From Pandoraea communis (lineage in GTDB: Bacteria > Pseudomonadota > Gammaproteobacteria > Burkholderiales > Burkholderiaceae), in the NCBI RefSeq assembly GCF_902459745.1, contig NZ_CABPSJ010000007.1, positions 124,001 through 188,000 of the forward strand: 64,000 bases of DNA, in the 5' to 3' direction. Under the pieces are notes generated by a model. That model made no database searches, was not told the DNA's origin, and was given only the letters and a program-made list of their open reading frames with translations. The position numbers and the translations under genes were made by a program. This document shows positions 3,888 to 35,093 of the stretch, piece after piece; positions within the stretch are counted from its first letter, which is position 1; each line of letters opens with the position of its first letter.

Positions 3888-5566
3888 GCGCCGCGCAAAC
3901 GGGGGCGGTGCAGCCGCTGCCTGCGGGCGAGGCGGGCGGTGCGAGGCCAGCCCATTCCGCCAACGATGAGCGAACGACCGGCGCGCTGCCCGCGCCTGGC
4001 GATGGCTACTCTGCCGACGCCATGTCGACGCAAGCGAAGGTCATCGCCTTCGCGACGATGGTGGTCGGCATGTTCATCGCATTGCTCGATATTCAGATCG
4101 TGTCGGCGTCGCTAAGAGACATTGGTGGCGGGCTGTCGGCCGGTGCCGATGAAACGGCGTGGGTCCAGACGAGCTACCTGATTGCCGAGATCATCGTGAT
4201 TCCGCTCTCGGGCTGGCTCTCGCGAGTGATGTCGACCCGCTGGATCTTCGCGGCGTCTGCGGCGGGCTTTACGGTGGCCAGCCTGCTGTGCGGTGCGGCG
4301 TGGAACATCCAGAGCATGATCGCGTTTCGCGCGTTGCAGGGATTCCTTGGCGGTTCGATGATTCCGCTGGTATTCACGACGGCCTTCGCCTTTTTCACCG
4401 GGCCGCAACGTGTGCTGGCCGCCGCAGTGGTCGGTGGCCTGTCGTCGCTCGCGCCGACCCTGGGGCCGACCATTGGCGGATGGATTACCGATAACTACTC
4501 GTGGCACTGGCTGTTCTTCGTCAACCTCGTGCCGGGCATTTTCGTGACGGTCACGGTGCCGCTGCTGGTGCGCATCGACCGTGCCGACTGGTCGCTGCTG
4601 CGCGGTGCGGACTATCTGGGCATCGTTCTCATGGCAGTCAGTCTCGGCTGCCTCGAGTACACACTGGAAGAAGGGCCGCGCTGGGATTGGTTCGGCGACA
4701 GCACGATTCGCACGACGGCATGGCTCGCCGGGCTCTGCATGATCGCGTTCCTCTGGCGCAGTCTCACGTTCGCAAGGCCCATCGTGGATCTCCGGGCACT
4801 GAAAGAGCGCAACTTCGCGTTAGGCTGCTTCTTCTCGTTCGCGACCGGCATCGGTATCTTCGCGACGATCTATCTCACGCCACTATTTCTCGGACGAGTG
4901 CGCGGATTTTCGGCGTTCGAGATCGGTATGGCCGTCTTTTCGACGGGCGTGTTCCAACTGATGTCGATCCCGATCTACGCGGCATTGGCCAATCGCATCG
5001 ATTTGCGCGTACTGATGATGCTCGGGCTAGGGGGCTTCGCCTTGTCGATGTGGCAGTTCGCACCGATTACCCACGACTGGGGCACTTGGCAACTCATGTT
5101 GCCGCAGGCATTGCGCGGTGCGGCGCAGCAGTTCGCCGTCGCTCCAATCGTCACGCTGACATTGGGGAGTCTTCCGCCCGCACGGCTGCGTCTGGCGTCG
5201 GGCCTGTTTAATCTGATGCGAAATCTCGGCGGTGCCATCGGCATCGCGGTGTGCACGACCGTGCTGAACGACCGGACGAATCTGCATTTCTTCCGGCTGG
5301 CCGAGCGCATGGGCGAGGGGAGTCCGGCGGTCGGGGCGTGGCTGGCGGGCGTTGGGGCGCGCATGAGTGCGGCGGGCCTCGATGCCCTCGATGTGCAAAC
5401 GGCGGCGCTGCGTCAGCTTTGGTTGTTGACGCTGCGTGAGGCACAAACGATCACGTTCGGCGACATTTACGGTGGATTGGGTCTGATCTTTCTTTGCGTG
5501 ACACTCATGGTGCCCCTGATGCGCCGGGTTGCACCTCCCAAAGCGCCGAGCGCCGACGCGCATTAA
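3884..5566 (+). CDS. DHA2-family MFS drug:proton antiporter (EmrB/QacA type)
   Basis: A 560-aa, about 14-helix transporter. After a roughly 45-residue hydrophilic N-terminus, the first helix carries the DHA2 signature (ALLDIQIVSASLRDIGGGL), then DETAWVQTSYLIAE and GWLSRVMSTRWIF (motif A region). GLSSLAPTLGPTIGGWI is the antiporter motif C region. The start is fixed by the 4-bp overlap with hlyD. It exports hydrophobic compounds through a tripartite complex; substrate not predictable. A hairpin spanning the stop codon (5552-5575) may end the operon. Confidence 0.92.
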   Translation: MSAAQTGAVQPLPAGEAGGARPAHSANDERTTGALPAPGDGYSADAMSTQAKVIAFATMVVGMFIALLDIQIVSASLRDIGGGLSAGADETAWVQTSYLIAEIIVIPLSGWLSRVMSTRWIFAASAAGFTVASLLCGAAWNIQSMIAFRALQGFLGGSMIPLVFTTAFAFFTGPQRVLAAAVVGGLSSLAPTLGPTIGGWITDNYSWHWLFFVNLVPGIFVTVTVPLLVRIDRADWSLLRGADYLGIVLMAVSLGCLEYTLEEGPRWDWFGDSTIRTTAWLAGLCMIAFLWRSLTFARPIVDLRALKERNFALGCFFSFATGIGIFATIYLTPLFLGRVRGFSAFEIGMAVFSTGVFQLMSIPIYAALANRIDLRVLMMLGLGGFALSMWQFAPITHDWGTWQLMLPQALRGAAQQFAVAPIVTLTLGSLPPARLRLASGLFNLMRNLGGAIGIAVCTTVLNDRTNLHFFRLAERMGEGSPAVGAWLAGVGARMSAAGLDALDVQTAALRQLWLLTLREAQTITFGDIYGGLGLIFLCVTLMVPLMRRVAPPKAPSADAH

Positions 5567-24978: not shown

Positions 24979-26448
24979 TCATCTTTGCGCATTATACGAG
25001 TCAGAGGATGTGTCCGATGGCGGTAGCCAGCCGCCGCCCAGCGCCTTCACCAGTGCGACCGACAAGACGAGTTGCTGGCCGCGAATCTGAACGTCCTGCC
25101 GCTCGCTCGCCAGCAGCCCTTGCTGCGCCGTGATGACACTCAGGTACGCCGTGAGTCCCCCCGAATAGCGGTCGTTGGCCAGACTCAGGAGCCGCTGGCC
25201 GTCGACGACCGCCGCATGCGATTCGCGCGCGGCCGCGTCGAGCACCGACAAACCGGCTACGCCGTCTTGCACCTGCTGGAACGCGGTGAGCACCGTCTGC
25301 CGGTAGTTTGCTTCCACGGCACGGTATCCCGCACTCGCGAAGTCGACGCCGGCTTGACGCCGTCCGCCATCGAAGATCGCTTGCGTTGCGAGCGTGCCCA
25401 CGGTCCACAGCAGACTCGGCGCAGACAGCAAGTTGGCGAATTCCGTGCTTTGCCAGCCAATGCCGGGGTTGAGCGTCAGACTGGGGAAGAATGCGGCCTT
25501 GGCCACCCCGATCTGTGCATTCGCGGCCGCCATGCCGCGCTCGGCCGACGCCACATCCGGACGGCGTTGCAGGATATCGCTCGGCACGCCGAGCGGAATC
25601 GGCGGCAGCGTGCCCGACAACGCACCGGCCGGCACCGAGAACGCGGGGGCGGGCATCCCGACGAGCGCGGCAATCGCATGCTCGTATTGGTCGCGTTGTT
25701 GATGCAGCAGGCGCGCCTGCACTCGGGTGGTGTCGAGTTCCGATTGTTGCTGGAGAACATCCAGACCCGAAACGGCGCCGAGATCATGCTGTGCGCTCAC
25801 GTAGTCGAGTGCCTTTTGTTGCAGCGTGACCGATTCATCGAGCACCCGGATTTCGGCGTCGAGGGTGCGCAACTGGAAATAGGCGGTGGCGAGTTGTGTC
25901 GTGAGCACCAGGCGAGCGTTGGCCAGATCGTCGGCGGCCTGTTCGGCAGAGGCGCGTGCGCCTTCGACCTGACGGCGGATGCGGCCGAACAGGTCGGTGT
26001 CGTAGCTCACGCCGAGGCCGGCCTGCACGTTGTTCTGCACGGTGGACATGCTGGACGACGAGTAGCTCGTGACCGGACGGTTTGCCGAGATGCGCTGACG
26101 GGCCAGACCGAACGACGCATCGACTTCCGGAAGCCGTTGGGCCGAGATGCCGGACAGCGTCGCTTGCGCCTGATCGTAATGCGCTACGGCAGCAGCAAGT
26201 GTCTGGTTCTGTGCGAGCGCCTGCGTTTCAAGCGCGTCGAGCGCGGGCGCCTGGAACCCCTTCCACCAATCGGGCTGCAATGGCGCGTGCGACGGTTGCG
26301 CGAGCCGCCAGTATCCGTCGGTCTTCCAGCCGGGCGGGGTCGAGACTTCGGGGCGGCGATAGTCCGGGCCGACGGCGCAGGCCCCGAGCAGTGCGGTGAC
26401 GGCGAGCAGCGTTGCGCCGAGACGCGCGTTGCGCACGGACGTGTTCAC
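24979..26448 (-). CDS. RND efflux outer-membrane factor lipoprotein (NodT family)
   Basis: A 489-aa outer-membrane channel with lipobox LLGAC (Cys about 24), CAVGPDYRRPEVSTP, two OEP repeats and the motif LQRRPDVASAERGMAAANAQIGVAKAAFFPSLTL. Its ATG overlaps the adaptor stop (ATGA). It is the exit duct of the RND pump and only distantly similar to the factor at 1086-2627. Confidence 0.92.
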   Translation of the reverse strand: MNTSVRNARLGATLLAVTALLGACAVGPDYRRPEVSTPPGWKTDGYWRLAQPSHAPLQPDWWKGFQAPALDALETQALAQNQTLAAAVAHYDQAQATLSGISAQRLPEVDASFGLARQRISANRPVTSYSSSSMSTVQNNVQAGLGVSYDTDLFGRIRRQVEGARASAEQAADDLANARLVLTTQLATAYFQLRTLDAEIRVLDESVTLQQKALDYVSAQHDLGAVSGLDVLQQQSELDTTRVQARLLHQQRDQYEHAIAALVGMPAPAFSVPAGALSGTLPPIPLGVPSDILQRRPDVASAERGMAAANAQIGVAKAAFFPSLTLNPGIGWQSTEFANLLSAPSLLWTVGTLATQAIFDGGRRQAGVDFASAGYRAVEANYRQTVLTAFQQVQDGVAGLSVLDAAARESHAAVVDGQRLLSLANDRYSGGLTAYLSVITAQQGLLASERQDVQIRGQQLVLSVALVKALGGGWLPPSDTSSDSYNAQR

Positions 26449-27701
26449 GACTGGGCTCCTTGCGGCTTGCCGCCCGCCTTGGCGCCGCCCTTGATCTCGA
26501 GAGCCTTGGCCAGCACATGGTCGCCGTCGTCGATCGAGTCGCTCGGGTTGACGATGACGCGGTCGGTTGCCGACACCCCATCGGCCAGTTCCAGCGCCTG
26601 TCCGAGATCCTGCGCGATGACGATCTTATGAAGATGAACGACGCCCTGATCGTCCACGACCGCCACGCGGGGGCCTTCTGCACGGAACAGCAGCGCATTG
26701 GATGGCACGCTCAGATGCGCCTGTACGGCGCTGGGCAGCGCCAGTTGCACGTAGGCGCCCGGGCGCAGCTTGCCGTCTGGATTCGGCAGGGCGGCTTCGA
26801 TTTGCAGCGAGCGGGTTGCCACGTCGATTGCGCCGGACACGTGCGTGATCTTGCCCTGGAAGTGCTCGCCGGGCAGTTCGGCCTGTGTCACCACGACGGG
26901 CTGCCCCACGTTCACGCCTTGTGCGTAAGCCTGCGGCACCTGAACGTATACGCGCAGCGGGTCCGTCTGCGCGAGCGAGAACAGCGCACGGCTGTTCCCG
27001 CTGCCCGCATCGATCAGGTCGCCGACGTCGACATTGCGCTGCGTGATCACGCCGTCGAAGGGCGCGACGATCCGCTTGAACGATTCGAGTTGCTGAAGTC
27101 GTTTGACATTGGCATCGGCCGCCGCCAGATTGGCGATGCCCTGCGTGTAGGTACTCTGACGCTCGTCGAGTTCTTGCTGAGAGACGGCGTCGCGCTGACG
27201 CAGTTGCTGCCAGCGTTCGAGCGACGATTTGGCGAGGCCCAGGCTTGCGCTGATCTGGTTGCGCTGCGCAACGGCCTGTGCGAGTTCCTGATCGATTTCC
27301 GGGGTATCGAGATCGGCCAGTAACTGACCTTGCTTCACGCGGGCACCGATGTCGACATAGCGATGCAGCAGATAGCCGGTCGCCCGCGCGTAGATGGGCG
27401 ACTCGACCGCGCCGCGCAACGTGGCGGGCAGCAGGGTTTCGCTCGCTTGGGTGACCTGCGGCATGACGACACTCACATACTGCCGGGCATTCTCGGCCGT
27501 TGCGCTGGCGACTTCGCGGCGTTGGAGTGCGTTGGAAAGGGTCGTGCGCGCCGCGCCCGCGACCAGCAGTACGGCCACCACGATCAGCATGAGCTTTGCG
27601 CGCCGGAATTCGCCGCGGCGCGGCGGCAACTGCCGGCCGTTGGCGGGATCGTGCTCGGGAATGGCCAGTTCGGCGTGATGTTTCTCGGTCATGTCGTTCA
27701 A
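26445..27701 (-). CDS. RND efflux periplasmic adaptor (MFP)
   Basis: A 418-aa adaptor. A membrane anchor (about residues 36-55, LMLIVVAVLLVAGAA) is followed by a biotinyl-lipoyl half (ESPIYARATGYLLHRYVDIGARVKQGQLLADLDTPEID), a helical hairpin and a beta-barrel half (FDGVITQRNVDVGDLIDAGS). It lies 48 bp after the pump gene and overlaps the outer-membrane factor. Substrate is probably shared with the HAE1-type pump. Confidence 0.92.
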   Translation of the reverse strand: MNDMTEKHHAELAIPEHDPANGRQLPPRRGEFRRAKLMLIVVAVLLVAGAARTTLSNALQRREVASATAENARQYVSVVMPQVTQASETLLPATLRGAVESPIYARATGYLLHRYVDIGARVKQGQLLADLDTPEIDQELAQAVAQRNQISASLGLAKSSLERWQQLRQRDAVSQQELDERQSTYTQGIANLAAADANVKRLQQLESFKRIVAPFDGVITQRNVDVGDLIDAGSGNSRALFSLAQTDPLRVYVQVPQAYAQGVNVGQPVVVTQAELPGEHFQGKITHVSGAIDVATRSLQIEAALPNPDGKLRPGAYVQLALPSAVQAHLSVPSNALLFRAEGPRVAVVDDQGVVHLHKIVIAQDLGQALELADGVSATDRVIVNPSDSIDDGDHVLAKALEIKGGAKAGGKPQGAQS

Positions 27702-27749: not shown

Positions 27750-30700
27750 TCATGCGTTGCCATTGCCGCCGTCGCCGTCGTTGTCCTTCGGAATGGGGGG
27801 GGGCGGCGAATGCCCAGCCGGGCGCTCACGCCGGGTGGCATCCTGTTCGGCCCTGCGTGCCTGTCTCTGCGCGAGCCGTGTGTGGATGCCGGCGAAAACC
27901 AGTGGCACGAAGAACAGCGTCGAGACCGTGGCAAACAGCAGCCCGCCGATCACCGCGCGGCCCAGCGGCGCGTTCTGCTCGGCGCCTTCGCCCAATCCGA
28001 GTGCCATCGGCACCATGCCGATAATCATCGCGAGCGCGGTCATCAACACCGGACGAATCCGGCTCGCGCCCGCTTCGAGCGCGGCCTTGAGCGGCGCCAT
28101 GCCGGCTTCCATACGTTGCCGTGCAAACGCCACCACAAGAATGCTGTTGGCCGTCGCCACGCCCATCGTCATGATGGCCCCCGTGAGCGCAGGCACCGAG
28201 AGCCGTGTACCGGAGAGGAAGAGCATCCAGACGATGCCCGCGAGTGCGGCGGGCAGGGCGCTCACAATGATGAGCGGGTCGACCCACGACTGGAAGTTCA
28301 CGACGATCAGCAGATAGACCAGCACGATGGCCATCGCCACGCCGACGCCCAGCCCGAGGTAGGAGCTTTGCATCGTGCTGACCTGACCGCGCACGGTGAT
28401 CTGGCTGCCACGCGGCAAATCCTTGCGGGCTTGCGCGACGAGCTTGTCGATGTCGCCTGCCACGCTGCCCAGATCCCGGCCTTCCACGCTCACGAAGATG
28501 TCGATCACCGGGCGGATGTTGTAGTGACTGACCACGGCGAACTGTTGCTTCGGCTCGACCTTCACGAAGTTGGCAAGCAGTTGCGGTTGACCGTTGTTGG
28601 CGGTGCCTGCCACCGGCAGGCGCAGCAGGTCGTCGATGGAACTGATGCGGTACTGCGGCGATTGCACCGACAGGCTGTACTCCACGCCGTTCTGGTTGTT
28701 GAACCAGAAGCCCGGCGACGTTTGCGAACTGCCCGAGAGCGAAATCAGCACGTTCTGGGCGACCGCGTTGGCGTTCAGATTCAATTGCTGCAAACGCGTG
28801 CGATCCATGTTCAGGTGCAGCGTTGGGGCGTTCACCCGTTGCTGGATATGCGTGTCGACAGTGCCTGGCACTTGCCGCACCTGTTTGAGCAGCTTCGTGG
28901 CGACATCGAAGTTCGCCAGTTGCTGGTTGCCGCTGATCTGGATGTCGATAGCGGCAGGCAGGCCAAAGTTGAGAATCTGCGTGACGATGTCAGCGGGCTG
29001 GAAGAAGAACTCCACGCCGGGGAAGCGCTGCGGCAGCACGGCGCGCAGTTTGTCGACGTAACTCGCGCTGGGATGATGATCCGGGCTCAGTGCGATTTGA
29101 ATCTCGCCGTCGAGCGTGCCGATGGTGCCGGCATTGCTGTACGACAGGTTGATGCCGCTGTAAGGCAGGCCGAGGTTGTCGAGTATCGTCTCGAGTTCGT
29201 TGGCGGGTACCACCTCGCGCACGACCTTCTCGACTTCATCGGCCAGACGCGCCGTTTCCTCGATGCGCGTTCCGGTGGGCGCGCGCATGTGCATGCGGAT
29301 GTCGCCCGCGTCCACTGTCGGGAAGAAGTCTGCGCCCAGGGCGAACACCAGCCCCATCGACAGTACGCAGAAGGCCAGGAAGCCGGTGGCGAAGACGCGC
29401 CGGCGTACGAGCAACATCGAGAGCACGACGATGTAGGCGGCGCGCATGCGCTCGAAGCCGGCGTCGAAGCGCAGGTAGATGCGGCGCAACGCACCGGGCT
29501 TCGCATTCGGGTCGGCCTGATGGGCATGGCCCATGAGCAGCATGGCGAGCGTGGGCACCAGCGTGCGCGAGAGGATGTACGACGCCAGCATCGCGAACAC
29601 GACCGCCTCGGCGAGCGGTACGAACAGGTAACGCGCCACGCCCGTCAGGAAGAACATTGGCACGAACACGATACAGATACACAGCGTCGAGACGAGTGCG
29701 GGGACGGCGATTTCGCCTGCGCCGTCGAGAATCGCCTCGTGCAACGGGGTTCCCATGTGCAGATGGCGCTCGATGTTCTCGATGGTTACGGTCGCGTCGT
29801 CGACCAGAATACCCACCGCGAGCGCCAGCCCGCCGAGCGTCATGATGTTGATCGTCTGGCCCAACGCATGCAGCGCGAGCAGCGACGAGAGGATCGAGAG
29901 CGGAATCGAGATGGCGATGATGCAGGTGCTGCGCCAGTTGCCGAGGAACAGCAAAATCATGGCCGCCGTAAGCGCAGCAGCGATCAACGCCTCGTGAATC
30001 ACGCCTTGCACGGCGGCCTTCACGAAGACCGACTGATCGAACAGCGCCGAGATATGCAGATCCGGCGGTAGCGCGGCACGTGCCTCGGGCAGTATCGCTT
30101 TGAGCGAGTCGACCACAGACAGCGTGGAGGCGTCGCCCGTCTTCATGATCGACATCAGCACGCCGCGCTGGCCGTTCTGACGCACGATGTTGGTCTGCGG
30201 CGAGAAGCCCGTGCGCACGTGTGCGACTTCACGCAAATAGGTGGTGGCGCCGCCGACAGTGCGCACCGGGATGCTGTTCAGCCCCTCGACCGTCGGGGGA
30301 GAACCATTCATGTCGACCGTGTACTCGCGCGGGCCGATCTTCGCCGTACCGGTCGGCAAGATCAGGTTCTGGGCGTTGACGGCGGCGACGACGTCCTGCG
30401 CTGTCAATCCCTTGGCGAGCAGGGCACGCGTATCGATATCCACCGAAATCAGTCGTGTCTTGCCGCCATACGGATAGGGCACGGCAGCGCCGGGGATCGT
30501 GACCAGTTGCGGGCGCAGGAAGTTGAGCGCCGTGTCGTTGAGCGCCGGCTCCGACAGACTCGGGCTCGACAGACCGAGCTGCATCACCGGGATCGACGAG
30601 GCCGAGTAGCTGATGACGAGCGGCGGCGTCGCCCCCGGCGGCATCTGCTTGACCTGCGCCTGTTCGACCGCAACGACCTGAGCGATGGCGGTCTGGATGT

Positions 30701-31001
30701 TGGCCGTGGGCTGCAGGAAAATCTTGATGATGCCGATGCCCGGCAACGATTGCGACTCGATGTGCTCGATGTTGTTGACGGTCGTCGTCAGCCCGCGTTC
30801 GTTACCGGAGATCATCCGGTCGGCAATGTCCTGTGCGGACAGACCGTTGTAAGTCCAGATGACGCTGATCACCGGGATATTGATTTCCGGCAGCACGTCG
30901 ACCGGCGTGCGCATGAGCGCGAGCGGCGTGGCGAGCAGGATCAGAATGGCCATCACGATGAACGTGTATGGCCGCTTGAGCGCAACGTTGACAATCCACA
31001 T
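27750..31001 (-). CDS. RND efflux inner-membrane pump (AcrB/HAE1 family)
   Basis: A 1083-aa proton-driven pump with 12 helices and two large periplasmic loops (PEINIPVISVIWTYNGLSAQDI near the N-terminus). Helix 4 keeps the proton-relay Asp pair (LAVGILVDDATVTIENIERH). Helix 10 reads GVATANSILVVAFARQ, lacking the Lys of AcrB (GLSAKNAILIVEFAK), a variation known in some RND subfamilies. The C-terminal tail is basic and Gly-rich. First gene of a five-gene operon with adaptor, outer-membrane factor and two-component system. Despite the metal-type kinase, the pump resembles multidrug rather than metal (HME) pumps. Confidence 0.93.
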   Translation of the reverse strand: MWIVNVALKRPYTFIVMAILILLATPLALMRTPVDVLPEINIPVISVIWTYNGLSAQDIADRMISGNERGLTTTVNNIEHIESQSLPGIGIIKIFLQPTANIQTAIAQVVAVEQAQVKQMPPGATPPLVISYSASSIPVMQLGLSSPSLSEPALNDTALNFLRPQLVTIPGAAVPYPYGGKTRLISVDIDTRALLAKGLTAQDVVAAVNAQNLILPTGTAKIGPREYTVDMNGSPPTVEGLNSIPVRTVGGATTYLREVAHVRTGFSPQTNIVRQNGQRGVLMSIMKTGDASTLSVVDSLKAILPEARAALPPDLHISALFDQSVFVKAAVQGVIHEALIAAALTAAMILLFLGNWRSTCIIAISIPLSILSSLLALHALGQTINIMTLGGLALAVGILVDDATVTIENIERHLHMGTPLHEAILDGAGEIAVPALVSTLCICIVFVPMFFLTGVARYLFVPLAEAVVFAMLASYILSRTLVPTLAMLLMGHAHQADPNAKPGALRRIYLRFDAGFERMRAAYIVVLSMLLVRRRVFATGFLAFCVLSMGLVFALGADFFPTVDAGDIRMHMRAPTGTRIEETARLADEVEKVVREVVPANELETILDNLGLPYSGINLSYSNAGTIGTLDGEIQIALSPDHHPSASYVDKLRAVLPQRFPGVEFFFQPADIVTQILNFGLPAAIDIQISGNQQLANFDVATKLLKQVRQVPGTVDTHIQQRVNAPTLHLNMDRTRLQQLNLNANAVAQNVLISLSGSSQTSPGFWFNNQNGVEYSLSVQSPQYRISSIDDLLRLPVAGTANNGQPQLLANFVKVEPKQQFAVVSHYNIRPVIDIFVSVEGRDLGSVAGDIDKLVAQARKDLPRGSQITVRGQVSTMQSSYLGLGVGVAMAIVLVYLLIVVNFQSWVDPLIIVSALPAALAGIVWMLFLSGTRLSVPALTGAIMTMGVATANSILVVAFARQRMEAGMAPLKAALEAGASRIRPVLMTALAMIIGMVPMALGLGEGAEQNAPLGRAVIGGLLFATVSTLFFVPLVFAGIHTRLAQRQARRAEQDATRRERPAGHSPPPPIPKDNDGDGGNGNA

Positions 31002-31118: not shown

Positions 31119-31140
31119 ACGCCAAAATGACGCCAAAATG
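31119..31140. promoter_or_regulatory. 11-bp tandem direct repeat upstream of the RND operon
   Basis: ACGCCAAAATG occurs twice head to tail, 118-139 bp upstream of the pump start, and is followed by the palindrome CGCCA-AAA-TGGCG. OmpR-family regulators bind direct repeats one helical turn apart, so the operon's own regulator is a candidate. The gap (31002-31348) also holds the DyP promoter, with a TTGACA at 31249; I see no other gene in it. Confidence 0.5.
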
Positions 31141-31348
31141 GCGGAATTGCCATAATCGGTGAAATTCGCCGCAAAGCCGCACCGTATAAGGCTTTGCTCG
31201 CCCGTTCGGCGACGGGAGTGGCATATTACGGCGTGTTGCGTTATAAAGTTGACACACCAAAAGTCGCCGCCCGATAGCCTATGGCCTGCCGTTCCCGCCG
31301 AGGTTGAGGTCAGCGACGTCGAGAACCTCAGCCCCACGCAGGAAAGCA

Positions 31349-32467
31349 ATGACCGAACGTCCGACGTCTCCCCCAGAACCTCAGCCCGTCTCGGGCACCG
31401 TTACCCGAAGCGCTATTTTTCTCGTGGCTACCGTGCGGGATGACGAAGCCGCGCACGCGCGCGTGCGCGACTGGTGCGCCGATGCTGCCGCCTATGCCCG
31501 CTCGGTCGGCAAGCGTGTGCCGTCCGGCAATTTGTCGTGTGTAGTCGGCTTCAGCGACAACGCATGGGATCGCCTGTTCGGCGGCCCGCGTCCGGCTGAA
31601 CTGCATCCGTTCCGTGAGTTCGGCTCGGGCAAGCGACATGCCCCGGCCACGCCCGGCGATCTGCTGTTGCACATCCGCGCCGAGCAGATGGATCTGTGCT
31701 TCGATCTCGCGACGCTCATGCTGGGTAAGCTGGGCGACGCCGTAAGCGTCGTCGACGAGGTCCATGGCTTCCGCTATTTCGACATGCGCAGCATGGTCGG
31801 CTTCGTCGACGGCACCGAGAACCCGGAGGGCGACGAGGCGCTCGAGTTCACCGTGATGGGCGACGAAGACCCCGAATTTGCAGGCGGCAGCTACGTGCTC
31901 GTGCAGAAGTATCTGCATGACATGACGGGCTGGAACGCGTTGCCGGTCGAGGCGCAGGAGCGCATCATCGGTCGCACCAAGCTCTCCGACGTCGAACTCG
32001 ACGAGGGCGTGAAGCCCAGTTGGTCGCACAGCGCGCTGACCACGCTCGAGGAAGACGGCAAGGAAATCAAGATTCTGCGTGACAACATGCCGTTCGGCCG
32101 CCCCGGTTCGGCCGAGTTCGGCACCTACTTCATCGGCTATGCCCGCTCCCCGGCACCGATCGAGCAGATGCTCGAGAACATGTTTGTGGGGCGTCCGCCC
32201 GGTAACTACGATCGTCTGCTCGACTACAGCCGCGCCGTGACCGGCGGACTGTTCTTCGTGCCGTCGGCACCGCTGCTCGAAGCGCTCGCCGAGCGCGAGG
32301 CGCCGGTGGCCGCCGCCGGGGCGGCGGCGATCAAGACCCTGATCGATGCGACGTCGACGGCCACGCCGGTTGTCGATGCCACGGTATCGTCTCTCACCTC
32401 ACCCAGCGCTGCCCCCGCAGAGGGCTCGCTGCAAATCGGATCGCTTAAAGGAGTTTCTCAGGCATGA
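31349..32467 (+). CDS. DyP-type peroxidase, encapsulin cargo
   Basis: A 372-aa heme peroxidase. The DyP motif GFVDGTENP holds the distal Asp (D154). R244 (ILRDNMPFG) is the distal Arg and H227 (PSWSHSA) the likely heme ligand, all matching bacterial class B DyP enzymes that oxidise dyes and lignin-type phenols with H2O2. After the domain comes an Ala/Thr/Ser-rich linker (about 325-357) and the C-terminal tail GSLQIGSLKG, the classical encapsulation peptide. ATG at 31349 has AGGAAAG upstream. The last codons overlap the encapsulin start by 4 bp, so cargo and shell are co-translated. Confidence 0.95.
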   Translation: MTERPTSPPEPQPVSGTVTRSAIFLVATVRDDEAAHARVRDWCADAAAYARSVGKRVPSGNLSCVVGFSDNAWDRLFGGPRPAELHPFREFGSGKRHAPATPGDLLLHIRAEQMDLCFDLATLMLGKLGDAVSVVDEVHGFRYFDMRSMVGFVDGTENPEGDEALEFTVMGDEDPEFAGGSYVLVQKYLHDMTGWNALPVEAQERIIGRTKLSDVELDEGVKPSWSHSALTTLEEDGKEIKILRDNMPFGRPGSAEFGTYFIGYARSPAPIEQMLENMFVGRPPGNYDRLLDYSRAVTGGLFFVPSAPLLEALAEREAPVAAAGAAAIKTLIDATSTATPVVDATVSSLTSPSAAPAEGSLQIGSLKGVSQA

Positions 32468-33294
32468 ATAACCTGCATCGCGAACTGGCCCCCATTTCGA
32501 GCGCCGCGTGGGCGCAAATCGAAGAAGAGGTGGCCCGCACGTTCAAGCGTACGGTTGCCGGCCGTCGTGTGGTCGACGTCAAGGGACCGGGTGGTCTGGC
32601 GCTCGCCGGTGTTGGCACCGGTCATCAGAAGGCGATCGACGCGCCGTTCGACGGCGTGGGGGCTCGTCAGCGTGAAGTGATGCCGCTCGTAGCGCTGCGT
32701 GTGCCGTTCGAGCTGTCGCGTGAGGCGATCGACGATGTCGAGCGCGGCGCCAACGACTCCGACTGGCAACCCGCCAAGGATGCCGCCATCAAGCTGGCCT
32801 ATGCAGAAGATCGCGCGATTTTCGATGGCTACAAGGCGGCGCACATCACGGGCGTGCGCGAAGGCACCTCGAATCCGGTGTTACCGCTGCCTGCCAACAT
32901 CGCCGATTACCCGACCGTCATTGCCAAGGCGCTGGAGCAATTGCGCCTTGAGGGGGTCGACGGTCCGTACAGCGTGCTGCTGGGCGCCGACGCCTACACG
33001 GCGGTGACCGAGGCGAACGACCAGGGCTATCCGATTCTCGAGCACATCGGGCACATCGTGAGCGGCGAGATCATCTGGGCGCCTGCCATCGACGGTGGCT
33101 GCATCCTCTCCACTCGCGGCGGCGACTACGAGATGCATATCGGTCAGGACGTCTCGATCGGCTACCTCGACCACACGGCGACTACGGTTCGTCTGTACCT
33201 CGAAGAGACCTTCACCTTCCTGATGCTGACCGCCGAAGCGGGTGTTTCGGTCGGTCCGGCCAAGCCGGCAGACGGCAAGAAGAAGTCGAAGTAA
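32464..33294 (+). CDS. Family 1 encapsulin nanocompartment shell protein
   Basis: A 276-aa HK97-fold shell protein (linocin_M18/CFP29 family). Diagnostic segments are MNNLHRELAPISSAAWAQIEEEVARTFK (N-terminal helix that binds cargo peptides), ALRVPFELSREAIDDVERGANDSDW, LGADAYTAV and FTFLMLTAEAGV. Such subunits self-assemble into icosahedral cages. The cargo is clearly the DyP peroxidase encoded immediately upstream and overlapping it. A Lys-rich tail (KKKSK) ends the protein. The operon is closed by a strong terminator. Confidence 0.96.
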   Translation: MNNLHRELAPISSAAWAQIEEEVARTFKRTVAGRRVVDVKGPGGLALAGVGTGHQKAIDAPFDGVGARQREVMPLVALRVPFELSREAIDDVERGANDSDWQPAKDAAIKLAYAEDRAIFDGYKAAHITGVREGTSNPVLPLPANIADYPTVIAKALEQLRLEGVDGPYSVLLGADAYTAVTEANDQGYPILEHIGHIVSGEIIWAPAIDGGCILSTRGGDYEMHIGQDVSIGYLDHTATTVRLYLEETFTFLMLTAEAGVSVGPAKPADGKKKSK

Positions 33295-33320
33295 GTCGTA
33301 CAAGTCCCTGACGGGAAAAG

Positions 33321-33361
33321 AAAAACGGCTGAGGGCAAGACATTGCCACCAGCCGTTTTTT
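33321..33361. terminator. Bidirectional terminator between encapsulin and arnT
   Basis: Arms AAAAACGGCTG and CAGCCGTTTTT with an inner GGCAA/TTGCC pairing. T-runs on both strands suit termination of both the encapsulin operon and the convergent arnT gene. Confidence 0.88.
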
Positions 33362-33377
33362 CATGGATGCTGCCGCG

Positions 33378-35093
33378 TCAGTTGGCGGCGGGAGACGGTC
33401 CGGCCGTCGGCTTCTCGATGATGACGCGACGGTCGTCGCGGGCGATGACCTTCATCGGCAGGCCGAGCGTTTCGAGCACCGTGAACTTTTCCGGATCGAC
33501 CAGCGCAAGCGCCTTGGGGGCGGCAACCCAGACTTCGGCGAACTTATCGAGCGTCGGGATCCAGCTATCCGGCGCTTGCGAGATGCCGAACTCCAGTTCG
33601 TCCTGCACCGCCACCATCGTCATGGGCTGACGCAGGTAGTAGGGCATCGTGTGATCGAGCGTGCCGACCGAGTAGAACGGCGTGTCCGGTCCGAGACGAT
33701 CCATTTCCGCGCGTACCGCCGGCACCAGATCGATCCCTGAACTCGCGCGTCCGAAGGCTTCGTGTCCCGTGCCGCCGATCATCGTGAAGGCCAGCCACGT
33801 GCCTGCAAACGCGATGAGCGCCTGTTTCGTGCTGCGCTGGCTCAGCCAGCGGGTGATACCGATGCCGATCAGCCCGACGAAGCTCGCCGCGTACAGATAG
33901 TACGAGAACGCGCGGTAGGCTTCCACCGGATTACGGCTATCCGAGTGATGCGACAGGAAGACCAGGCAGGTAACGATCGTCGCGACGAACAATGCGGCGG
34001 ACACGATGAGATGCTTGCGCAGCGACTCGCGCGAGAGGCTCGCAATGCCCAGCCCGATGAGTAGCGCGATGGCAGGCACGATCGGCAGCACGTACGAAAT
34101 GAGCTTCGAGTGCGACAGGGAGAAGAAGCAGAAGATGAAGACGGCCCAGACCGTGGTCATCAGCACCGGCCGGAAGCCGTTGGCCTGACGGGGGACGGCA
34201 CGCACGGCAGAAAAGGCGCGCGGGATCATCGACAGCCACGGCAGGAAACCGACAATCAGCACCGGCACGAAATACCAGAGTGCGCCGGGGCGATGATGAT
34301 CCGGTTTCAGGAAGCGGTTGAAGTGTTCGTTGATGAAAAAGAAATCGAAGAACGACGGGTTACGTGCCATCACGGCAGCGAACCACGGCACCGTCACGGC
34401 GAGCAGCACGATCAGCCCGCTCACGATGTGCAGGCGCTTCCACAATGCCCAGTCGCGTGAAATCAGCGTGTAGATCACGAGCACGGCACCGGGCAACACC
34501 ACGCCGATCAGCCCTTTGCTCAGAATCGACAGGCCCATCGCTGCCCAGCACAGCCACATCCAGTTGCGGGTTTGCGTGTCGGTCAGGCCGGGACGTTGTG
34601 CGAGCAGCAGCGAGCACAGCACGAGCGTCATCATGAACGACAGGCCCATGTCGAGCACGTTGAAATGACCGAGCAGGCTCCACAGCGGGGCGCTTGCCAG
34701 CGTCAACGCGGCGAAGAAGCCCGCGCGCGCGCCGAACACGCGCCGCCCGGTGTACCCGACGAGCAGCACGCCGCCGAAACCGGTCAGCGCTGTCCACAGG
34801 CGTGCCTGCCAGTCGCCGAGACCGAAGATCATGAACGTCAGCGCGTTCATCCATGTCTGAAGCGGGGGTTTCTCGAAGTACAAATAGCCGTTGTAGCGCG
34901 GCGTGACCCAGTCGCCTGTGGCCAGCATTTCGCGCGCCATCTCGGCGTAGCGGCCTTCGTCGCTCGGGATCAGATGGCGCAGGTTCAATACGCCAAACCA
35001 AACCAGGGCGAACACGGCAAGCAGCCACAGCAGGGCGGCGGGAGAGATCGGCCAGGGTTCCAACTCGGCGTCACGTTGAGGGCGTGTGGACAT
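33378..35093 (-). CDS. arnT: ArnT-like lipid A aminoarabinose transferase (GT83/PMT family)
   Basis: A 571-aa integral membrane glycosyltransferase. The catalytic loop LIPSDEGRYAEMAREMLATGDW carries the acidic pair of the PMT/ArnT family, followed by RYNGYLYFEKPPLQTWMNAL and about 12 membrane helices, then a periplasmic C-terminal domain. ArnT moves 4-amino-4-deoxy-L-arabinose from undecaprenyl phosphate to lipid A, giving polymyxin resistance. It lies 60 bp after a PmrB/QseC-like kinase on the same strand. Other arn genes are not in the window, so a related sugar specificity is possible. Confidence 0.85.
   Translation of the reverse strand: MSTRPQRDAELEPWPISPAALLWLLAVFALVWFGVLNLRHLIPSDEGRYAEMAREMLATGDWVTPRYNGYLYFEKPPLQTWMNALTFMIFGLGDWQARLWTALTGFGGVLLVGYTGRRVFGARAGFFAALTLASAPLWSLLGHFNVLDMGLSFMMTLVLCSLLLAQRPGLTDTQTRNWMWLCWAAMGLSILSKGLIGVVLPGAVLVIYTLISRDWALWKRLHIVSGLIVLLAVTVPWFAAVMARNPSFFDFFFINEHFNRFLKPDHHRPGALWYFVPVLIVGFLPWLSMIPRAFSAVRAVPRQANGFRPVLMTTVWAVFIFCFFSLSHSKLISYVLPIVPAIALLIGLGIASLSRESLRKHLIVSAALFVATIVTCLVFLSHHSDSRNPVEAYRAFSYYLYAASFVGLIGIGITRWLSQRSTKQALIAFAGTWLAFTMIGGTGHEAFGRASSGIDLVPAVRAEMDRLGPDTPFYSVGTLDHTMPYYLRQPMTMVAVQDELEFGISQAPDSWIPTLDKFAEVWVAAPKALALVDPEKFTVLETLGLPMKVIARDDRRVIIEKPTAGPSPAAN

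Follow-up and report, generated by a model that had tools for sequence, protein, structure and literature searches.

A probable two-gene family 1 DyP-encapsulin operon on a Pandoraea chromosome and its pairing in related genomes

Positions 31349–33294 of the window, the 64,000 nt stretch of Pandoraea communis DNA analyzed here, very probably represent a two-gene family 1 DyP-encapsulin operon on the Pandoraea chromosome, with the DyP caged; we place the probability of this reading at about 95%. The profile scores are far above their cut-offs and chance is excluded for both gene assignments. The preliminary description proposed a family 1 encapsulin with a DyP cargo, and profile searches, solved relatives and the pairing of the two genes in related genomes all support this. 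The two genes with their overlap, the catalytic and peptide-site residues, the loading peptide and the pairing in other genomes are observed directly. Co-transcription, cargo loading and shell assembly are predicted from the gene arrangement and conserved residues, and the type of substrate that the DyP would use is deduced in the same way. The whole genome from which the window comes has one shell match and one DyP match.

The upstream gene (31349–32467, plus strand) encodes the cargo, a DyP-type heme peroxidase. Its frame runs from an ATG at 31349 to a stop at 32467 and translates to 372 aa (39.9 kDa); a purine-rich AGGAAAG is found shortly 5' of the start. The assignment is based on the translation, Pfam, NCBIfam and an alignment with PDB 8u4z. 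The protein scores 119.4 bits with Pfam Dyp_perox_N (cut-off 20.4), 196.5 bits with Dyp_perox_C (cut-off 20) and 289.6 bits with the NCBIfam family Dyp_perox_fam, TIGR01413 (cut-off 100.5). It does not reach the cut-off of the EfeB/deferrochelatase equivalog TIGR01412, which represents the Tat-exported DyPs (52.4 versus 428 bits). The catalytic Asp, proximal His and distal Arg are D154, H227 and R244, exactly the numbers given previously. In the Klebsiella DyP the proximal heme ligand is His225 and the distal residue Arg242 (PMC10960027); H227 and R244 align with these, with an offset of two. The spacing of the three residues is identical in 24 of 24 DyP loci from the genus. A strict D/H/R pattern is found in 76 of the best 80 named loci, and three of the four misses carry the residues on inspection; the fourth (L063) has no DyP beside its shell gene.

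The peroxidase fold is followed by a low-complexity Ala/Ser/Thr/Pro linker (32294–32422, plus strand, approximately residues 316–358, the boundary being approximate), and then by the cargo-loading or targeting peptide GSLQIGSLKG (32423–32452, plus strand, residues 359–368) and a terminal VSQA. The linker and peptide had been noted at the DyP C-terminus before, and the peptide agrees with the published DyP loading consensus, GSLxIGSLK (PMC10960027). A search of the window's genome for a second cargo used a degenerate DNA pattern for G-S/T-L-x-I/V-G-S/T-L-K/R-G, which weaker peptides would escape, and found two genomic places, one of which is the DyP. The second, on contig C1, was rejected as a cargo: its stop-to-stop frame spans about 34 residues, and no frame of at least 100 aa has the motif near its end.

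The downstream gene (32464–33294, plus strand) encodes a full-length family 1 encapsulin shell protein of 276 aa. Its start overlaps the DyP stop by 4 bp in the sequence ATGA (32464–32467, plus strand), in agreement with the earlier account. The protein scores 316 bits over the whole Pfam Linocin_M18 profile (cut-off 24.3) and 341 bits with NF041155, the NCBIfam model of the family 1 encapsulin shell (cut-off 100). In Klebsiella the loading peptide contacts shell residues Arg34, Asp38 and Asp229 (PMC10960027), and this published peptide-binding site is conserved in the window protein as R34, D38 and D229. The best 80 named loci have R34 and D38 in all 80 cases; position 229 is D in 77 and E in 2, and the pattern did not pick up the equivalent in one. 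Next to its shell gene the locus thus encodes a cargo that carries a C-terminal targeting peptide, the arrangement that marks family 1 encapsulins, and the overlap favors co-production of DyP and shell.

Alignments with solved relatives extend over almost the entire length. The best solved matches of the DyP are 9e5e_B (427 bits) and 8u4z (419 bits). Those of the shell are 9e5e_A (364.6 bits) and 8u50 (360.5 bits, ungapped over 266 residues); 9e4r is also among the best solved encapsulin relatives. By analogy, an icosahedral T=1 shell of about 24 nm enclosing the cargo is expected. Particles larger than T=1 would be unlikely, because the best-matching solved shells include that of Klebsiella pneumoniae, a T=1 shell built of 60 subunits and 24 nm across that holds on average 12 DyP per shell (PMC10960027).

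The same gene pair is found in many related genomes, where the preliminary description had suggested looking for it. Of the 32 genomes sampled in the genus, 24 have both the shell and the DyP, and the other 8 lack both genes. The pair is therefore dispensable in its role. The genus DyPs occur as one match per genome and are 84–100% identical to the window DyP. The nearest named loci are from Pandoraea, and the shell of P. horticolens shows 100% identity (rounded). In the family sample the shell is present in 99 of 299 genomes and some DyP match in 159; all 99 shell-bearing genomes are among the 159, as determined by cross-reading the two lists by eye. Three family genomes (G135, G142 and G221) have a normal shell and also a short match to the shell C-terminus on another contig; these short matches are perhaps remnants or diverged relatives.

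Among the best 80 named loci, which were picked by likeness to the window shell and are not a random sample, 79 have an upstream DyP on the same strand with a loading peptide. The junction between the two genes is mostly an 8-bp overlap (58 loci) compared with 4 bp in the window; a 4-bp overlap occurs in 15 loci and a 1-bp gap in 2. Four Burkholderia loci have DyP and shell 443–1027 bp apart. These four loci, together with the unpaired shell at L063, show that tight pairing is not universal.

The spaced Burkholderia loci (L070, L077, L079 and L081) represent an insertion between cargo and shell with both left intact. Three of them (L070, L077 and L079) have an opposite-strand gene between DyP and shell, at about 4160–4850 on the minus strand; that of L079 has a weak match to a GIY-YIG nuclease (20.7 bits; cut-off 22.6). 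L063 (4938–5801, Neisseriaceae bacterium JH1-16) is a second shell gene with no adjacent DyP and with an isochorismatase-like gene downstream. The same genome also has a normal pair (L059) and one close DyP, and the L063 shell is possibly served by a distant cargo or by another one.

A working scheme for the pair can be drawn from the relatives. The DyP would be made first, bind heme and probably form a hexamer, as its relatives do. The GSLQIGSLKG peptide would then dock in a conserved groove facing the shell interior, again as in the relatives, and assembly of a 24-nm T=1 cage from about 60 shell subunits would enclose one or two DyP hexamers. The shell pores would admit peroxide and small substrates, and the DyP would reduce the peroxide while oxidizing a small reductant. 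Heme binding and peroxide-dependent oxidation by the window DyP are presumed by analogy. The most likely role, a looser deduction, would be defense against peroxide and reactive aromatics.

Proteomic data from Pandoraea sp. ISTKB bear on this role. A 40.8 kDa DyP-type peroxidase, the one DyP-type of that genome, was identified there from 15 unique peptides and was more abundant on kraft lignin, with a log2 value of 1.43 (PMC5987411). It is probably the caged DyP, because those genomes of the genus that have a DyP carry it once and with a shell. The lignin response fits either defense during growth on aromatics or the oxidation of small phenols. The same machine could thus have the oxidation of lignin-derived aromatics as its main role rather than peroxide defense, and the increase on kraft lignin favors this alternative. 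However, the enzyme would be inside the cell and inside a shell, and the five-fold pore of the Klebsiella shell is 9 Å wide (PMC10960027), so that polymeric lignin cannot enter the shell and would be out of reach. Kraft lignin also raised glutathione and peroxide defense proteins in ISTKB (PMC5987411). Some antioxidant proteins of this strain went down on lignin (PMC5987411), and the change is therefore not a simple stress signature. A main role in lignin-derived aromatic oxidation appears somewhat unlikely, and defense against peroxide and reactive aromatics is preferred.

A different question is whether the enzyme depends on the cage. The family sample includes 33 genomes with a DyP match of 65–80% identity and no shell match, where "shell-less" denotes no match to the window shell at E 0.001, a threshold that a very different encapsulin would escape. 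Catalytic D, H and R are kept in all 32 readable DyPs of this set: the strict pattern is found in 20 of the 33 loci, of the 13 misses, 12 have all three residues and the other, L160, is without an intact frame. The enzyme can therefore do without a shell, and published relatives show activity in the free form (PMC10960027). These data favor a DyP that is mainly a free cytoplasmic enzyme, with a shell that is optional or for special conditions only. The C-terminal tails argue against this. Loading peptides are absent from the shell-less DyPs (0 of 32 readable, 33 fetched), and the 31 with a parsed tail end 10–31 residues past the last conserved strand, with no linker. Linker and peptide are found in 79 of the best 80 shell loci compared with none of the 32, and so it is for the shell that the tail is maintained. 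Co-production is also favored by the overlap of the two genes. A mainly free enzyme is improbable on this evidence, and the caged DyP is retained as the reading for the window.

A DyP tree calculated with the tail excluded shows how the loading peptide is distributed. The "peptide" label needs 8 changes on the tree, of which the starred branches force 2, compared with approximately 27 when labels are shuffled. The tree is a quick one of 109 of 113 loci (L063, L073, L160 and L162 were dropped), with 42 of 105 inner branches weakly supported and unevenly drawn rows, and the figure of 8 is a rough one. With about eight state changes of the loading peptide, two or more of which have good support, caged and free DyP forms seem to interconvert. 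There is an evenly balanced case that DyP caging in the Burkholderiaceae is switchable, with linker, peptide and shell gained and lost together repeatedly and the whole unit cleanly lost at one conserved Pandoraea site. If this is true, close relatives with and without a cage constitute a natural experiment on the purpose of the cage in DyP encapsulins.

The Pandoraea site is defined by its flanking genes, both outside the system. On the left is a divergent gene for an RND transporter of the AcrB family (27750–31001, minus strand). It scores 659.9 bits with ACR_tran, is separated from the DyP start by 347 bp and is adjoined by an HlyD-type gene (26445–27701). The pair was previously said to be divergent from an RND efflux operon, and this arrangement matches. 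On the right is a convergent arnT-like glycosyltransferase gene (33378–35093, minus strand), a neighbor that is also present at the empty sites described below. The genome has a second arnT-like gene at G000 C3:707393–709066, which is 64% identical to the first. These neighbors also bear on the suggestion that the shell is a phage capsid remnant with an accidental DyP neighbor, a negligible possibility: the HK97 fold is common to encapsulins and phage capsids (PMC8346489), but the 341 bits scored with the family 1 shell model exceed its cut-off of 100 more than threefold, the best solved relatives are encapsulins, no phage gene is present among the scanned neighbors (RND, HlyD and arnT-like), 24 of the 32 genomes of the genus retain the pair, and the DyP bears a loading peptide.

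In two shell-less genomes, G010 and G008, the RND gene is next to the arnT-like gene with no DyP or shell gene between them. Their DNA matches the window up to position 31240 and again from 33310–33312, and in place of the intervening sequence, about 2.07 kb in the window, the two empty sites have 17 and 10 bases. G029, also shell-less, keeps an arnT-like copy, and its RND neighbor is gone too. A tree of arnT-like proteins groups G008, G010 and G029 together (support 99), next to a shell-bearing genome (95), which fits a single loss of the pair as read from this one gene tree, whose root is unsure. Besides the window, the tree includes 29 of the 31 remaining genus genomes (all but G023 and G025); its rows G028, G017 and G030 are distant, with long branches, and are probably paralogous. 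With 24 genus genomes that have the pair, 8 that do not, two of these 8 with closed-up flanks, and the close tailless DyPs of shell-less family members, comparisons could probe the benefit of the cage to the peroxidase.

The empty sites also help to assign the non-coding sequences. A hairpin at 33320–33361 has a delta G of -26.9 kcal/mol and a z of -6.4, and 0 of 200 shuffles were as low; an A-run precedes it and a T-run trails it. A simple terminator scan gave no entry for this hairpin, probably because inner loops break the rules of the scan. It persists at both empty sites, with z values of -6.6 and -3.3 and 0 and 1 of 200 shuffles as low, and there it follows an A-rich sequence, the orientation expected of a terminator for the minus-strand arnT-like gene. 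The retention at empty sites, together with the A-run and T-run, points to a hairpin that is probably a shared, bidirectional terminator, belonging jointly to the DyP-shell operon and the convergent arnT-like gene. The strong terminator reported previously after the shell gene is thus present as a strong hairpin, but it is probably not the operon's alone.

Upstream of the DyP gene, a block at 31241–31281 (plus strand) is well conserved in 23 aligned shell-bearing Pandoraea loci and is missing at both empty sites (L163 and L164). The alignment comprises 23 of the 24 genus loci, the start pattern having missed L113. The block behaves as expected of a DyP promoter region and is a candidate for it, with no promoter assigned. 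The promoter consensus scan upstream of the DyP gave a single weak plus-strand site at 31127–31156. TTGACA at 31249 was considered as a promoter element and rejected; it differs in several genus loci and is without a good second hexamer. At 31219–31240 there is a GTGGCATATTACGG-type block that is kept in shell-bearing Pandoraea and at both empty sites, and it is therefore more likely in the control region of the RND gene.

Compared with known systems, the window pair is a textbook DyP-encapsulin pair and an ordinary member of a well-studied class. That family 1 DyP encapsulins are known elsewhere was stated in the preliminary description; a 2021 survey counts 1,505 DyP systems, including 519 from Proteobacteria (PMC8346489), and the pair is therefore not unusual. 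No paper devoted to a Pandoraea DyP-encapsulin pair was found in the open-access literature, exclusive of survey supplements, where the pair may be listed, and the passages of PMC8197335 and PMC6733911 that were seen hold no link between Pandoraea and an encapsulin. The pair thus adds one more apparently undescribed member to a large known class. The Klebsiella pneumoniae DyP encapsulin (PDB 8u4z, 8u50 and 8u51) has two core genes in the same order as the window. Its loading peptide is GSLNIGSLK compared with GSLQIGSLK, and the equivalents of R34/D38/D229 and H225/R242 are common to both. The surroundings differ: the Klebsiella operon is surrounded by transposases, preceded by a formate dehydrogenase gene and followed by an rpoH-like gene (PMC10960027), whereas the window pair is flanked by the RND transporter and arnT-like genes at one conserved site in the genus. 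The widespread enterobacterial peroxidase encapsulin (PMC12140327), which PDB 9e5e and 9e4r probably represent, gives the best solved match of both proteins. Its T=1 shell is DyP-loaded; its operon is transposon-associated and has formate dehydrogenase and rpoH-like genes, none of which are beside the window pair. The pairs of Paraburkholderia, Burkholderia and Alcaligenaceae resemble the window pair in having the DyP followed by the shell, with the loading peptide present.
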